Below, one piece after another: positions 774 through 10,000 of a DNA stretch of 10,000 nucleotides. A program made the translations under genes and the position numbers. The notes below the pieces were generated by a model that saw only the letters and a program-made list of their open reading frames with translations, did not search any database and was not told where the DNA came from. This DNA is from Theodoxus fluviatilis (Eukaryota > Mollusca > Gastropoda > Cycloneritida > Neritidae): positions 95,001 to 105,000 of the forward strand of contig JAWQFJ010016713.1 of the NCBI GenBank assembly GCA_034096865.1. The letters run 5' to 3'. Position 1 is the first letter of the stretch, and each line of letters opens with the position of its first letter.

Positions 774-1057
774 GTTGAGATGTGTTATGCAACAGGTATG
801 GGCTATGCTGTCTTACGCACCAAGTATGCTCACTACATTGTAATACTGCAGAAACAATATACCCACACTGCACAAGTATTACAGTTCTAAAACTACACTG
901 TAGTAGTACCCTCATTGTACTCTGTATTACTATCACACTACTCAGTAGCACTACCCACACACCACACTGTACTACACTCACACACTACACCGTACTACTA
1001 CCCACACACTACACACTACACTGTACTACTACCCACACACTACACACTACACTGTAG
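774..1057 (+). repeat. left outer arm of long inverted repeat (transition into satellite)
   Basis: This 284-bp segment is the reverse complement of 9717-10000 with a single mismatch (T at 912 against A on the complementary strand at 9862). Paired positions sum to 10774 throughout, so there are no indels. The first part (774-900) is nearly unique sequence. The rest moves into satellite-like units with irregular lengths, including composite copies with an extra CACACTA near 1005-1050. The paired arm runs to the window end, so its full length is unknown. Confidence 0.95.
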
Positions 1058-2460
1058 TACTACCCACACACTACACACTACACTGTAGTACTCCCCACAC
1101 ACCACACTGTAGTACTCCCCACACGCTACACTGTAGTACTACCCATACACTACACTGTAGTACTACCCATGCACTACACTGTAGTACTACCCATGCACTA
1201 CACTGTAGTACTACCCACACACTACACTGTAGTACTACCCACACACTACACTGTAGTACTACCCACACACTACACTGTAGTACTGTCCACACACTACACT
1301 GTAGTACTAGCCACACACTACACTGTAGTACTACCCACACACTACACTGTAGTACCACCCACACACTACTCTGTAGTACCACCCACACACTATACTGTAC
1401 TACACCCACACACTACACTGTAGTACTACCCACACACTACACTGTACTACTACTCACACACTACTCTGTAGTACTATCCACACACACTACACTGTAGTAC
1501 TACCCACACACTACACTGTAGTACTACCCACACACTACACTGTAGTACTACCCACACACTACACTGTAGTACTACCCACACACTACACTGTAGTACTAGC
1601 CACACACTACACTGTACTACCACCCACACACTACACTGTAGTATAACCCCCACACTATACTGTACTACACCCACACACTACACTGTAGTACTACCCACAC
1701 ACTACACTGTACTACTACTCACACACTACACTGTAGTACTACCCACACACTACACTGTAGTACTACCCACACACTACACTGTAGTACTACCCACACACTA
1801 CACTGTAGTACTACCCACACACTACACTGTAGTACTACCCACACACTACACTGTAGTACTACCCACACAATACACTGTAGTACTACCCACACACTACACT
1901 GTAGTACTACCCACACACTACACTGTAGTACTACCCACACACTACACTGTAGTACTACCCACACACTACACTGTAGTACTACCCACACACTACACTGTAG
2001 TACTACCCACACACTACACTGTAGTACTACCCACACACCACACTGTAGTACTACCCATACAATACACTGTAATACTATCCACACACTACACTGTAGTACT
2101 ACTCACATACTACACTGTACTACTACTCACACACTACACTGTAGTACTACCCTCACACCACACTGTAGTACTACCCTCACACTACACTGTAATACTACCA
2201 GCACACTACACTGTAGTACTACCCGCACACTACACTGTAGTACTACCCACACACTACACTGCAGTACTACCCGCACACTACACTGCAGTACTGTCCACAC
2301 ACTACACTGTAGTACTACCCGCACACTACACTGTAGTACCACCCACACACTACACTGTAGTACTGTCCACACACTACACTGTAGTACCACCCGCACACTA
2401 CACTGTAGTACCACCCACACACTACACTGTAGTACTACCCGCACACTACACTGTAGTACT

Positions 2461-3215
2461 ACCCTCACACCACACTGTAGTACTACCCGCACACTACACT
2501 GTAGTACTACCCTCACACCACACTGTAGTACTACCCGCACACTACACTGTAGTACTACCCGCACACTACACTGTAGTACTAACCACACACCACACTGTAG
2601 TACTACTCTCACACCACACTGTAGTACTACCCGCACACTACACTGTAGTACTACCCGCACACTACACTGTAGTACTATCCGCACACTACACTGTAGTACT
2701 ACCCTCACACCACACTGTAGTACTACCCGCACACTACACTGTAGTACTACCCGCACACTACACTGTAGTACTACCCGCACCCTACACTGTAGTACTACCC
2801 TCACACCACACTGTAGTACTACCCGCACACTACACTGTAGTACTACCCGCACACTACACTGTAGTACTAACCACACACCACACTGTAGTACTACTCTCAC
2901 AACACACTGTAGTACTACCCGCACACTACACTGTAGTACTATCCGCACACTACACTGTAGTACTACTCACACACTACACTGTAGTACTCCCCACACACTA
3001 CACTGTAGTACTACCCACACACTACACTGTACTACCACCCACACACTACACTGTCCTACTACCTACACATTACACTATAGTACTACCCGCACACTACACT
3101 GTAGTACTAACCACACACCACACTGTAGTACTACTCTCACACCACACTGTAGTACTACCCGCACACTACACTGTAGTACTATCCGCACACTACACTGTAG
3201 TACTACTCACACACT
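2461..3215. repeat. higher-order repeats of 12 and 10 satellite units
   Basis: The ordered variant series ACTAACCACACACC, ACTACTCTCAC, CCCGCAC, ATCCGCAC appears from 2577, 2865 and 3105. The AACC markers at 2581, 2869 and 3109 are 288 and 240 bp apart (12 and 10 units). The first two copies are also preceded by the same CCCTCACACC then CCCGC, CCCGC series. This is what unequal crossover or block duplication would leave. The units within one block differ more from each other than from the matching units in other blocks. Confidence 0.75.
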
Positions 3216-3760
3216 ACACTGTAGTACTATCCGCACACTACACTGTAGTACTACTCACACACTACACTGTAGTACCACCCACACATTACACTGTAGTACT
3301 ACTCACACACTACACTGTAGTACTACCCGCACACTACACTGTAGTACTACCCGCACACTACACTGTAGTACTACCCACACACTACACTGTCCTACTACCT
3401 ACACACTACACTGTAGTACTACTCACACACTACACTGTAGTACTACCCGCACACTACACTGTAGTACTACCCGCACACTACACTGTAGTACTACCCGCAC
3501 ACTACACTGTAGTACTACCCGCACACTACACTGTAGTATTACCCACACACTACACTGTAGTACTACTCACACACTACACTGTAGTACTACTCACACACTA
3601 CACTGTAGTACTACCCGCACACTACACTGTAGTACTATCCGCACACTACACTGTAGTACTACTCACACACTACACTGTAGTACTCCCCACACACTACACT
3701 GTAGTACTACCCACACACTACACTGTCCTACTACCTACACATTACACTATAGTATTACCC
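2929..3760. repeat. duplicated block about 29 units apart
   Basis: The series CCCGCAC, ATCCGCAC, ACTCACAC, CTCCCCACAC, then the rare TGTCCTACTACCTACACATT and CACTATAGTA, occurs near 2929-3085 and again near 3613-3760. The ATCC markers at 2941 and 3637 are 696 bp (29 units) apart. The TGTCC markers at 3052 and 3724 are 672 bp (28 units) apart, because the first copy has one extra unit (ACTACCACCC). A single-unit indel after the duplication explains the difference. Confidence 0.65.
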
Positions 3761-4117
3761 ACACACTACACTGTAGTACTACTCACACACTACACTGTAG
3801 TACTACTCACACACTACACTGTACTACTACTCACACACTACACTGTAGTACTACTCACACACTACACTGTAGTACTACCCACACACTACACTGTAGTACT
3901 ACCCACACACTACACTGTAGTACTACTCACACACTACACTGTAGTACTACCCATGCACTACACTGTAGTACTACTCACACACTACACTGTAGTACTATTC
4001 ACACACTACACTGTACTACCACCCACACACTACTCTGTACTACTACCTACACACTACACTGTAGTACTACTCACACACTACACTGTAGTACTACTCACAC
4101 ACTACACTGTAGTACTA

Positions 4118-4303
4118 CCCGCACACTACTCTGTAGTACCACCCACACACTACACTGTAGTACTACCCACACACTACACTGTAGTACTGTCCACACACTA
4201 CACTGTAGTACTACCCACACACTACACTGTACTACTACCCACACACTATACTGTAGTACTACATACACACTACACTGTACTACTACCCACACACTACACT
4301 GTA
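4118..4303. repeat. segment duplicated at 5701-5886
   Basis: These 186 bp match 5701-5886 at all but one base. They carry the same ordered rare variants: CCCGCAC, CTACTCTG, TACCACCC, ACTGTCC, TGTACTACTACCC, CACTATACTG and ACTACATACAC. The copies are 1583 bp apart, one base short of 66 units, which the one-base deletion near 4443 accounts for. Confidence 0.85.
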
Positions 4304-4532
4304 CTACTACCTACACACTACACTGTAGTACTACCGACACACTACACTGTAGTACTACCCACACACTACACTGTACAACCACCCACACACTACACTGTAC
4401 TACTACCTACACACTACACTGTAGTACTACCGACACACTACACATAGTACTACCCACACACTACACTGTAGTACTACCCACACACTACACTGTAGTACTA
4501 CCCTCACACTACACTGTAGTACTGTCCACACA

Positions 4533-4740
4533 CTATGCTGTAGTACTACCCACACACTACACTGTAGAACTACCCACACACTACACTGTAGAACTATCCA
4601 CACACTACACTGTAGAACTACCCACACACTACACTGTAGAACTATCCACACACTACACTGTAGAACTACCCACACACTACACTGTAGAACTACCCACACA
4701 CTACACTGTAGAACTATCCACACACTATGCTGTAGTACTA
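4533..4740. repeat. GTAGAAC variant cassette in the satellite
   Basis: Seven successive units carry GTAGAACTA instead of GTAGTACTA, with GAAC at 4567, 4591, 4615, 4639, 4663, 4687 and 4711, all 24 bp apart. Within them CCC and TCC forms mostly alternate, suggesting a 48-bp dimer expansion. The cassette is framed by CTATGCTG at 4533 and 4725, 192 bp apart. The A for T change breaks the 10-bp palindrome found in ordinary units. Confidence 0.75.
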
Positions 4741-5700
4741 TCCACACACTACACTGTAGTACTACCCACATACTACACTGTACTACTACTCACACACTAC
4801 ATTGTAGTACTACCCACACACTACACTGCAGTACTACCCACACACTACACTGTAGTACTACCCACATACTACACTGTAGTACTACTCACACACTACACTG
4901 TACTACTACTCACACACTACATTGTAGTACTACCCACACACTACACTGTAGTACTACTCACACACTACACTGTAGTACTACCCACATACTACACTGTAGT
5001 ACTACCAACATACTACACTGTACTACTACTCACACACTACTCTGTAGTACTATCCACACACTGCACTGTAGTACTACCCACATACTACACTGTACTACTA
5101 CTCACACACTACTCAATAATACTACCCACACACTACACTGTAGTACTACCCATGCACTACACTGTAGTACTATCCACACAGTACACTGTAGTACTAAACA
5201 CATACTACACTGTACTACTACTCACACACTACATTGTAGTACTACCCACACACTACACTGCAGTACTACCCACACACTACTCTGTAGTACTAGCCACACA
5301 CTACACTGTACTACTACTCACACACTACATTGTACTACTACTCACACACTACACTGTAGTACTACTCACACACTACACTGTAGTACTACTCACACACTAC
5401 TCTGTAGTACTACTCACACACTACTCTGTAGAACTACTCACATACTACACTGTACTACTACTCACACACTACTCAGTAATACTACCCACACACTACACTG
5501 CAGTACTACCCACACACTACTCTGTAGTACTACTCACACACTACACTGTAGTACTACATACATACTACACTGTACTACTACCCACACACTACACTGTAGT
5601 ACAACCCACACACTACAATGTAGTACTACCCACACACTACACTGTAGTACTGTCCACACACTACACTGTAGTACTATCCACACACTACACTGTAGTACTA

Positions 5701-5886
5701 CCCGCACACTACTCTGTAGTACCACCCACACACTACACTGTAGTACTACCCACACACTACACTGTAGTACTGTCCACACACTACACTGTAGTACTACCCA
5801 CACACAACACTGTACTACTACCCACACACTATACTGTAGTACTACATACACACTACACTGTACTACTACCCACACACTACACTGTA
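5701..5886. repeat. second copy of the 4118-4303 segment
   Basis: This copy is identical to 4118-4303 except for one base in CACACACAACAC (near 5815-5817), where the first copy has CACACACTACAC. After 5886 the copies part: this one goes on with GTACAACCC, the first with CTACTACCTAC. Confidence 0.85.
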
Positions 5887-7111
5887 GTACAACCCACACA
5901 CTACACTGTAGTACTACCCATACACTACACTGTAGTACTACCCATACACTACACTGTAGTACTACCCACACACTACACTGTAGTACAACCCATACACTAC
6001 ACTGTAGTACTACCCACACACTACACTGTAGTACTACCCACACACTACACTATAGTACTACCCATACACTACACTGTACTACTACCCACACACTACACTG
6101 TAGTACAACCCACACACTACACTGTAGTACTACCCATACACTACACTGTAGTACTACTCACACACTACACTGTAGTACTAACCACACACTACACTGTAGT
6201 ACTACCCATACACTACACTGTAGTACTACCCACACACTACACTGTAGTACTACCCACACACTACACTGGAGTACTGTCCACACACTACACTGTAGTACTA
6301 CCCATGCACTACACTGTAGTACTATCCACACACTACACTGTAGTACTACCCACACACTACACTGTAGTACTACCCACACACTACACTGTAGTACTATCCA
6401 TTCACTACACTGTAGTACTACCCACACACTACACTGTAGTACTACCCACACACTACACTGTAGTACTACCCACACACTACACTGTAGTACTACCCACACA
6501 CTACACTGTAGTACTACCCACACACTACACTGTAGTACTACCCACACACTACACTGTAGTACTACCCATTCACTACACTGTAGTACTACCCACACACTAC
6601 ACTGTAGTACTACCCATTCACTACACTGTAGTACTATCCACACACTACACTCTACTACTACTCTCACACTACACTGTAGTACTACCCACATACTACACTG
6701 TAGTACTACCCACATACTACACTGTACTGCTACTCACACACTACACTGTAGTACTACCCACATACTACACTGTAGTACTACCCACATACTACACTGTAGT
6801 ACTACCCACATACTACATTGTACTACTACTCACACACTACTCTGTAGTACTACTCACACACTACACTGTAGTACTACCCACATACTACACTGTACTACTA
6901 CTCACACACTACTCTGAAGTACTGCCCACACACTACTCTGTAGTACTACTCACACACTACACTGTACTACTACTCACACACTACTCTGTAGTACTACCCA
7001 CCCACTACACTGTACTACTACTCACACACTACTCTGTACTACTACCTACATACTACACTGTAGTACTACCCACACACTACTCTGTAGTACTACTCACACA
7101 CTACACTGGTA

Positions 7112-7177
7112 ATCTCTCTCAACACGCCAGAGCGGGAGGAGGGGAAGTGAAAGGAAAACCGGACAGGTGGTAGAGAT
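7112..7177. other. probable PacBio SMRTbell adapter remnant (noisy)
   Basis: ATCTCTCTCAACA at 7112-7124 matches the first 13 bases of the SMRTbell hairpin adapter as I remember it. GGGAGGAGGGGAA at 7134-7146 resembles the adapter's GGAGGAGGAGGAA part, and AGAGAT at 7172-7177 matches its end. The adapter is 45 nt and this stretch is 66, so it would need many insertions, as in low-quality raw reads. It sits exactly where the satellite switches strand, which is where a read would turn round a hairpin adapter. This is recognised from memory, not from a database search. Confidence 0.7.
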
Positions 7178-7291
7178 TTACAACGAGAGAGAAGGGTGGG
7201 TAGCTAGTGTGCGGGGGGAACATAGATCGACAAGGGGATTTAGGACGTATGGAAACAATTAGCACAAGATGGTAAGTTTGGTGCGGACGTA
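7178..7291. other. unexplained spacer, possibly low-quality read sequence
   Basis: This 114-bp stretch is purine-rich and not periodic, with no open frame of note. Short fragments such as GGGTAGCTAGTGTGCGGG (7198-7215) look like corrupted satellite units in the G/T-rich orientation. It fits error-laden sequence after an adapter turn. It could also be true junction DNA of an inverted duplication. Confidence 0.45.
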
Positions 7292-9716
7292 AGTACTACT
7301 GTGTAGTGTGTGGAGAGTACTACAGTGTAGTGTGTGGGTAGTACTACAGTGTAGTGTGTGGGTAGTACTACAGTGTAGTGTGTGGGTAGTACTACAGTGT
7401 AGTGTGTGGGTAGTACTACAGTGTAGTGTGTGGGTAGTACTACAGTGTAGTGTGTGTTTAGTACTACAGTGTAGTGTGTGAGTAGTACTACAGTGTAGTG
7501 TGTGAGTAGTACTACAGTGTAGTGTGTGGTTAGTACTACAGTGTAGTGTGTGAGTAGTACTACAGTGTAGTGTGTGGTTAGTACTACAGTGTAGTGTGTG
7601 AGTAGTACTACAGAGTAGTGTGTGAGTAGTACTACAGTGTAGTGTGTGGGTAGTACTACAGTGTAGTGTGTGGGTAGTACTACAGTGTAGTGTGTGGGTA
7701 GTACTACAGTGTAGTGTGTGGGTAGTAGTACAGTGTAGTGTGTGGGTAGTACTACAGTGTAGTGTGTGGGTAGTACTACAGTGTAGTGTGTGAGTAGTAC
7801 TACAGTGTAGTGTGTGGTTAGTACTACAGTGTAGTGTGTGGGTAGTAGTACAGTGTAGTGTGTGGGTAGTACTACAGTGTAGTGTGGTGGTAGTACTACA
7901 GTGTAGTGCGTGGGTAGTACTACAGTGTAGTGTGTGGACAGTACTACAGTGTAGTGTGTGGGTAGTAGTACAGTGTAGTGTGTGGGTAGTACTACAGTGT
8001 AGTGTGTGGTAGTACTACAGTGTAGTGTGTGGTAGTACTACAGTGTAGTGTGTGGTAGTACTACAGTGTAGTGTGTGGTAGTACTACAGTGTAGTGTGTG
8101 GTAGTACTACAGTGTAGTGTGTGGGTAGTACTACAGTGTAGTGTGTGGGTAGTACTACAGTGTAGTGTGTGTTAGTACTACAGTGTAGTGTGTGAGTAGT
8201 ACTACAGTGTAGTGTGTGGGTAGTACTACAGTGTAGTGTGTGGGTAGTACTACAGTGTAGTGTGTGAGTAGTACTACAGTGTAGTGTGTGGGTAGTACTA
8301 CAGTGTAGTGTGTGGGTAGTACTACAGTGTAGTGTGTGGGTAGTACTACAGTGTAGTGTGTGGGTAGTACTACAGTGTAGTGTGTGGGTAGTACTACAGT
8401 GTAGTGTGTGGTAGTACTACAGTGTAGTGTGTGGGTAGTACTACAGTGTAGTGTGTGGGTAGTACTACAGTGTAGTGTGTGGGTAGTACTACAGTGTAGT
8501 GTGTGGGTAGTACTACAGTGTAGTGTGTGGGTAGTACTACAGTGTAGTGTGTGGGTAGTACTACAGTGTAGTGTGTGGTAGTACTACAGTGTAGTGTGTG
8601 GGTAGTACTACAGTGTAGTGTGTGGGTAGTACTACAGTGTAGTGTGTGGGTAGTACTACAGTGTAGTGTGTGGGTAGTACTACAGTGTAGTGTGTGGACA
8701 GTACTACAGTGTAGTGTGTGGGTAGTACTACAGTGTAGTGTGTGGGTAGTACTACAGTGTAGTGTGTGGGTAGTACTACAGTGTAGTGTGTGGGTAGTAC
8801 TACAGTGTAGTGTGTGGGTAGTACTACAGTGTAGTGTGTGGGTAGTACTACAGTGTAGTGTGTGGGTAGTACTACAGTGTAGTGTGTGGGTAGTACTACA
8901 GTGTAGTGTGTGGGTAGTACTACAGTGTAGTGTGTGGGTAGTACTACAGTGTAGTGTGTGGGTAGTACTACAGTGTAGTGTGTGGGTAGTACTACAGTGT
9001 AGTGTGTGGGTAGTACTACAGTGTAGTGTGTGGGTAGTACTACAGTGTAGTGTGTGGGTAGTACTACAGTGTAGTGTGTGGGTAGTACTACAGTGTAGTG
9101 TGTGGGTAGTACTACAGTGTAGTGTGTGGGTAGTACTACAGTGTAGTGTGTGGGTAGTACTACAGTGTAGTGTGTGGGTAGTACTACAGTGTAGTGTGTG
9201 GGTAGTACTACAGTGTAGTGTGTGGGTAGTACTACAGTGTAGTGTGTGGGTAGTACTACAGTGTAGTGTGTGGGTAGTACTACAGTGTAGTGTGTGGTTA
9301 GTACTACAGTGTAGTGTGTGAGTAGTACTACAGTGTAGTGTGTGGGTAGTACTACAGTGTAGTGTGTGGGTAGTACTACAGTGTAGTGTGTGGGTAGTAC
9401 TACAGTGTAGTGTGTGGGTAGTACTACAGTGTAGTGTGTGGGTAGTACTACAGTGTAGTGTGTGGGTAGTACTACAGTGTAGTGTGTGGGTAGTACTACA
9501 GTGTAGTGTGTGGGTAGTACTACAGTGTAGTGTGTGGGTAGTACTACAGTGTAGTGTGTGGGTAGTACTACAGTGTAGTGTGTGGGTAGTACTACAGTGT
9601 AGTGTGTGGGTAGTACTACAGTGTAGTGTGTGGGTAGTACTACAGTGTAGAGTGTGGGTAGTACTACAGTGTGGTGTGTGGGTAGTACTACAGTGTAGTG
9701 TGTAGAGTGGGTAGTA
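7292..9716 (-). repeat. 24-bp satellite array in inverted orientation, about 100 units
   Basis: This is the reverse complement of the left array; a typical unit is 8947-8970, with CAGTGTAGTGTGTGGG followed by TAGTACTA. It is more uniform than the left array. From about 8703 to 9290 some 25 units are identical, as are about 13 from 9325 to 9640. Variants include TGTGGTTAG and TGTGAGTAG types at 7440-7620 and 9294-9320, GGACAG at 7937 and 8697, and TAGTAGTAC at 7723, 7843 and 7963. Several units are 23 bp, with GG for GGG, notably five in a row from about 8005 to 8105. Confidence 0.97.
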
Positions 9717-10000
9717 CTACAGTGTAGTGTGTAGTGTGTGGGTAGTAGTACAGTGTAGTGTGTAGTGTGTGGGTAGTAGTACGGTGTAGTGTGTGAGTGT
9801 AGTACAGTGTGGTGTGTGGGTAGTGCTACTGAGTAGTGTGATAGTAATACAGAGTACAATGTGGGTACTACTACAGTGTAGTTTTAGAACTGTAATACTT
9901 GTGCAGTGTGGGTATATTGTTTCTGCAGTATTACAATGTAGTGAGCATACTTGGTGCGTAAGACAGCATAGCCCATACCTGTTGCATAACACATCTCAAC
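9717..10000 (-). repeat. right outer arm of long inverted repeat, cut by window end
   Basis: This is the reverse complement of 774-1057 with one mismatch in 284 bp. It starts in composite satellite units and ends in the near-unique sequence that precedes the left array. The match is still perfect at base 10000, so the arm very probably goes on outside the window. Its open frame is simply the mirror of the one at 782-1057. Confidence 0.95.

Follow-up and report, generated by a model that had tools for sequence, protein, structure and literature searches.

Organization of the palindrome

The window, i.e. the whole stretch of 10,000 nucleotides analysed, contains two arrays of the same 24-bp satellite in opposite orientations, separated by a purine-rich spacer and bordered by copies of the same flanking DNA. 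The following features were distinguished:

1 to about 890: flank at the left end of the window, before the array (about 890 bases)
774-893, + strand: part of the flank adjoining the array, which recurs in inverted form as the last bases of the window (120/120 identical to the reverse complement of 9881-10000 in the alignment)
892-7111, + strand: left arm, 24-bp satellite with unit ACTACACTGTAGTACTACCCACAC and many variant units, its last bases being ACACTGGTA (TRF and reading of 7109-7111)
7112-7156, + strand: likely a degraded 45-nt PacBio SMRTbell hairpin adapter adjoining the array end (global and local alignment)
7157-7203, - strand: likely a noisy reverse complement of the last 46 bases of the left arm, i.e. 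the returning strand, including AGAGAT at 7172-7177 (template score 42, phase peak)
7204-7291, no strand assigned: stretch without explanation, probably of low read quality and similar to the right arm in being rich in G and poor in C (composition taken over 7156-7291)
7292-9882, - strand: right arm, the same satellite reversed, shorter and more uniform, with 23-bp units lacking one base (TRF)
9881-10000, - strand: mirrored flank, cut off by the end of the window

In the TRF analysis, the left array extends from 892 to 7108 with a period of 24 (258.4 copies, 89% matches), and the right array, built from the reverse complement of the unit, from 7292 to 9882 (107.7 copies, 94% matches). A first-pass annotation had reported that the satellite runs in one orientation up to 7108 and in the other from 7292, and TRF confirmed that this switch is real. 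On the + strand, the array can be read three bases past its TRF end, from 7108 to 7111, as ...ACACTGGTA, and the spacer between the arrays accordingly comprises the 180 bases from 7112 to 7291.

The palindrome is not confined to the satellite. The reverse complement of 9881-10000 agrees with 774-893 in 120 out of 120 bases, and the mirror copy is exact up to the end of the window. The same non-array DNA is therefore found on both sides in opposite orientation, as an artefact caused by a missed adapter requires. Since the palindrome includes DNA outside the array, it is the locus itself that returns, which is more than a satellite changing direction. At the flank-side edge of both arms, TRF detected a 31-bp repeat unit (974-1107 and 9669-9800), an arrangement that fits one array edge seen twice. 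The left flank is partly repeat-derived, containing a degenerate 28/56-bp tandem repeat at 433-621 and a 19-bp repeat at 1-62 (TRF). Searches of a plasmid collection with positions 1-900 of the window gave no match, and no exact match to a 32-base pattern of the satellite was obtained among viral contigs.

A SMRTbell-like sequence at the turning point

In the first-pass annotation, the spacer was suggested to contain the parts of the PacBio hairpin adapter in the right order. All of these landmarks were found, and in that order, with ATCTCTCTCAACA at 7112-7124, GGGAGGAGGGGAA at 7134-7146, and AGAGAT at 7172-7177. The letters of the SMRTbell 45-mer used for the alignments were confirmed in the cutadapt command in PMC10936554, which carries the adapter letters, and in an exact 45-mer ending the IMG/VR locus L003. 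In the orientation beginning with ATCTCTCTCAACAACAACAAC, the 45-mer aligns over its full length to 7112-7156 with 36 identities, six mismatches, and six gaps, the adapter-like stretch thus differing from SMRTbell in 12 of 48 alignment columns. The error-tolerant local alignment of the spacer to the 45-nt adapter, a check proposed along with the annotation, yielded a score of 25 and a match above chance. This score was reached by none of 20,000 dinucleotide shuffles of 7109-7291 (mean 13.5, sd 1.8, maximum 23), by two of 20,000 shuffled adapters, and by one of 20,000 composition-matched random sequences. Local SMRTbell scores in the rest of the window did not exceed 13.

SMRTbell sequence above chance at the turning point is a further property required of a missed-adapter artefact. 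It is present here owing to the first 13 bases: what makes the match significant is the exact 13-mer ATCTCTCTCAACA, located directly at the array end. The adapter lacking these 13 bases matched the rest of the spacer at chance level (809 of 5,000 shuffles reached the score), and when the same 32 adapter bases were confined to 7125-7160, 694 of 5,000 shuffles reached the score. Among simulated noisy adapters, 0.1% scored this low or lower at 15% total error, 10.5% at 28%, and 52% at 40%. The adapter match requires heavy local noise, which could also explain how the adapter went unrecognized.

Seven other adapters were compared with the spacer, namely a newer PacBio adapter, three nanopore, two Illumina TruSeq, and the Nextera adapter. 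Neither the nanopore adapters nor those of TruSeq and Nextera stood out above chance; for the nanopore adapters LSK top, LSK bottom, and RAP, between 271 and 500 of 500 shuffles reached the score in three scorings. The newer PacBio adapter was weakly above chance, its score of 11 being reached by 40 of 500 shuffles.

A second copy of the adapter in 7156-7291 was rejected, the score being 14 versus 12.6 for the null. Likewise, extension of the adapter to the end of AGAGAT at 7177 was rejected, since the global score is then 17, compared with 24 if the adapter stops at 7156. Its end is most likely located at about 7156, and AGAGAT, previously counted among its parts, is better read as noisy returning satellite. 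Elsewhere, exact matches to a 35-base adapter core were present in two stretches of genome contigs and one of viral contigs, where SMRTbell core had been left in two Bacteroides faecalis contigs (L001, 392-426; L002, 6083-6117) and one IMG/VR contig (L003, 2341-2375); these matches were used to verify the letters of the adapter.

The probable returning strand and the differences between the arms

If an adapter is missed, the next bases should be the reverse complement of those preceding the adapter. Aligned to 7112-7203, a template composed of the adapter and the reverse complement of 7066-7111 scored 42. All 6,011 other left-arm anchors scored lower; the best of them, at the adjacent base, had 41, and the maximum among 5,980 anchors below 7080 was 40. 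As controls for the hairpin template, the adapter in opposite orientation scored 20, 5,000 permuted adapters scored no higher than 33, and the adapter followed by non-turning (+) satellite no higher than 30. When averaged by phase, the score was highest at the predicted 24-bp phase (34.7 at phases 0 and 23, a tie), the lowest average being 24.2. The 47 bases after the adapter (7157-7203) thus fit the reverse complement of the last 46 bases of the array in the phase predicted by a hairpin. A reverse complement starting at the junction, as required for a missed adapter, was found for these 46-47 bases and for the phase, but not for 7204-7291.

While the phase and the orientation of the return strand are well supported, its exact register is weakly supported. 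The end of the return span at 7203 was chosen after local alignment had revealed the span, and the register depends on the span chosen. For return strands of 24, 34, 46, 58, 72, 92, and 132 bases, 8, 0, 0, 15, 33, 49, and 180 of 5,911 anchors, respectively, were better, so that with longer spans the junction is no longer distinguished from other anchors. With an adapter-free template and starts anchored at 7150, 7153, 7156, 7159, and 7162, the corresponding numbers were 293, 44, 0, 9, and 0 of 1,528 anchors, and in unanchored local scores without the adapter, 0 and 221 of 5,812 anchors were better on 50 and 80 bases, respectively.

For 7204-7291, no match above chance to the expected satellite was obtained (score 19, reached by 1,411 of 2,000 mononucleotide shuffles). 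Taken as a whole, the region 7156-7291 did not surpass shuffled versions of itself in matching the satellite (360 of 1,000 in one test, 397 of 2,000 in another). Its interpretation as satellite with ordinary read noise was rejected, the score being 28 versus a simulated mean of 104 at 15% error and 37 at the heaviest noise tried. Therefore, only the first 47 bases of this region fit.

The 88 bases at 7204-7291 could also be the low-quality turn of a technical fold-back that involved no adapter, caused by a polymerase strand jump, an amplification palindrome, or a nanopore template-complement fusion, the 13-mer being coincidental. Amplification palindromes are described in passages of PMC6218980, and polymerase strand jumps are named in passages of PMC6977585. 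The fold-back palindromes of whole-genome amplification, as these passages of PMC6218980 present them, resemble the window in that a locus and its inverted copy lie in a single stretch, but no adapter is expected at their turn, whereas here one matches. The position of the exact ATCTCTCTCAACA directly at the array end, the failure of all 20,000 spacer shuffles to reach the adapter score, and the chance-level scores of the three nanopore adapters tried speak against a fold-back of this kind, which is considered unlikely.

The arms of the palindrome differ in length and composition. A single hairpin-folded read gives equal arms, but the arrays measure about 6.2 kb on the left and 2.6 kb on the right, a difference of about 2.4-fold (TRF). 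This inequality speaks against a simple copy of one folded read, and an additional misassembly step is needed; the length of an array can change when a tandem repeat is assembled. The structure is therefore not just the one that a missed adapter gives, as the first-pass annotation had stated it. The commonest unit accounts for 68 of 105 units in the right arm versus 44 of 233 in the left. Spacings of 23 bp were detected in 8 of 99 cases in the right arm and in none of 192 in the left, which has three spacings of 47 bp. Five consecutive 23-bp spacings are located at 7991-8106 in the right arm. In the 23-bp unit, CCC is short of one C, a loss that would be consistent with a consensus left unpolished. 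The right arm looks like a poorer consensus, a point in favour of an artefact.

Comparisons of the arms with each other revealed that irregular units near the flank are common to both, and that several variants of the left arm correspond to the standard unit on the right. Ungapped segments of 96 bases from the right arm near the junction had their best match elsewhere in the left arm and not at its end, in a test that covered all but the last 95 bases. When such 96-base segments were placed on the left arm, most of those beyond the flank-side edge had no unique register; further in, most segments fitted many places in the left arm or non-mirrored ones.

Unequal arms and different unit variants would fit separately evolving arrays, as expected if array and flank had been duplicated head to head around a natural spacer of 180 bases and the array lengths had drifted apart; the mirrored flank could then be a recent copy. 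Natural inverted satellite arrays and chromosomal palindromes comprise head-to-head arrays with mirrored flanks, which are also present here, but their spacers are not expected to hold a match to a sequencing adapter at the array end, unlike the spacer in the window. Moreover, the flank is identical in 120 of 120 bases while the arrays differ, the bases after the adapter match fit the complement of the array's end, and the 23-bp spacings (8/99 versus 0/192) argue against a real inverted duplication as well. Such a duplication is very unlikely, and there is only a slight chance that the palindrome, about 9 kb long, is a real head-to-head satellite structure whose flank was copied recently and whose spacer is adapter-like by coincidence.

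Probable origin of the palindrome and consequences for the assembly

The palindrome is very probably a long-read artefact resulting from a missed PacBio SMRTbell adapter in one folded read that entered the assembly. This interpretation, already put forward in the first-pass annotation, is supported by the directly observed match to the adapter at the array end, which is above chance, by the reversal of the array, by the exact mirrored flank, and by the fit of 7157-7203 to the array end in the predicted phase. In the proposed course of events, a PacBio polymerase would have read a fragment ending in the satellite, rounded the SMRTbell hairpin adapter (7112-7156), and come back on the complementary strand. 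The adapter would likely have been missed because this part of the read was noisy, and the read would have passed into the assembly unsplit, fusing the locus with its inverted copy. We infer the origin from a single read, and also that the arms became unequal when the tandem repeat collapsed or was overlapped out of register. The simplest account of the inequality would be a folded read with a shorter stretch of the array, or a collapsed array, plus repeat overlaps placed out of register.

Missed SMRTbell adapters produce palindromic sequences and can affect assembly, as stated in passages of PMC6218980, and PacBio reads with a missed SMRTbell adapter are described in passages of PMC3504050. 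Compared with the reads in these passages, the window is alike in having an adapter at the turn, followed by a copy of the locus from the opposite strand in the return phase predicted by a hairpin, and unlike in its unequal arms and the 88-base stretch without explanation. To account for these two differences, an additional step during assembly must be assumed, either collapse or out-of-register overlap. Chimeric breaks within large repeat regions get missed, according to a passage of PMC6977585. That adapter contamination merged two separately assembled contig ends, with no folded read involved, is scarcely conceivable: adapter sequence does persist near a contig end elsewhere (L002), but the partner here is the same locus reversed, flank included, which a chance merger would not choose, and the fit of the return strand suggests one molecule.

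With a missed adapter in a folded read as the origin, the sequence to the right of 7111, the last 2.9 kb of the window, is probably not a separate chromosomal segment, and the real array would run on from about 7111 into sequence outside this window. The giant palindrome is most likely not a real genomic feature. If this is true, the assembly contains a false inverted duplication in which about 2.9 kb of the window and any further mirrored flank are counted twice, and the real length of the satellite array and its far side lie beyond what the assembly shows. Moreover, an adapter so degraded that it differs in 12 of 48 columns would then be able to persist within an assembled tandem repeat and would probably escape adapter screens that require exact or low-error matches.
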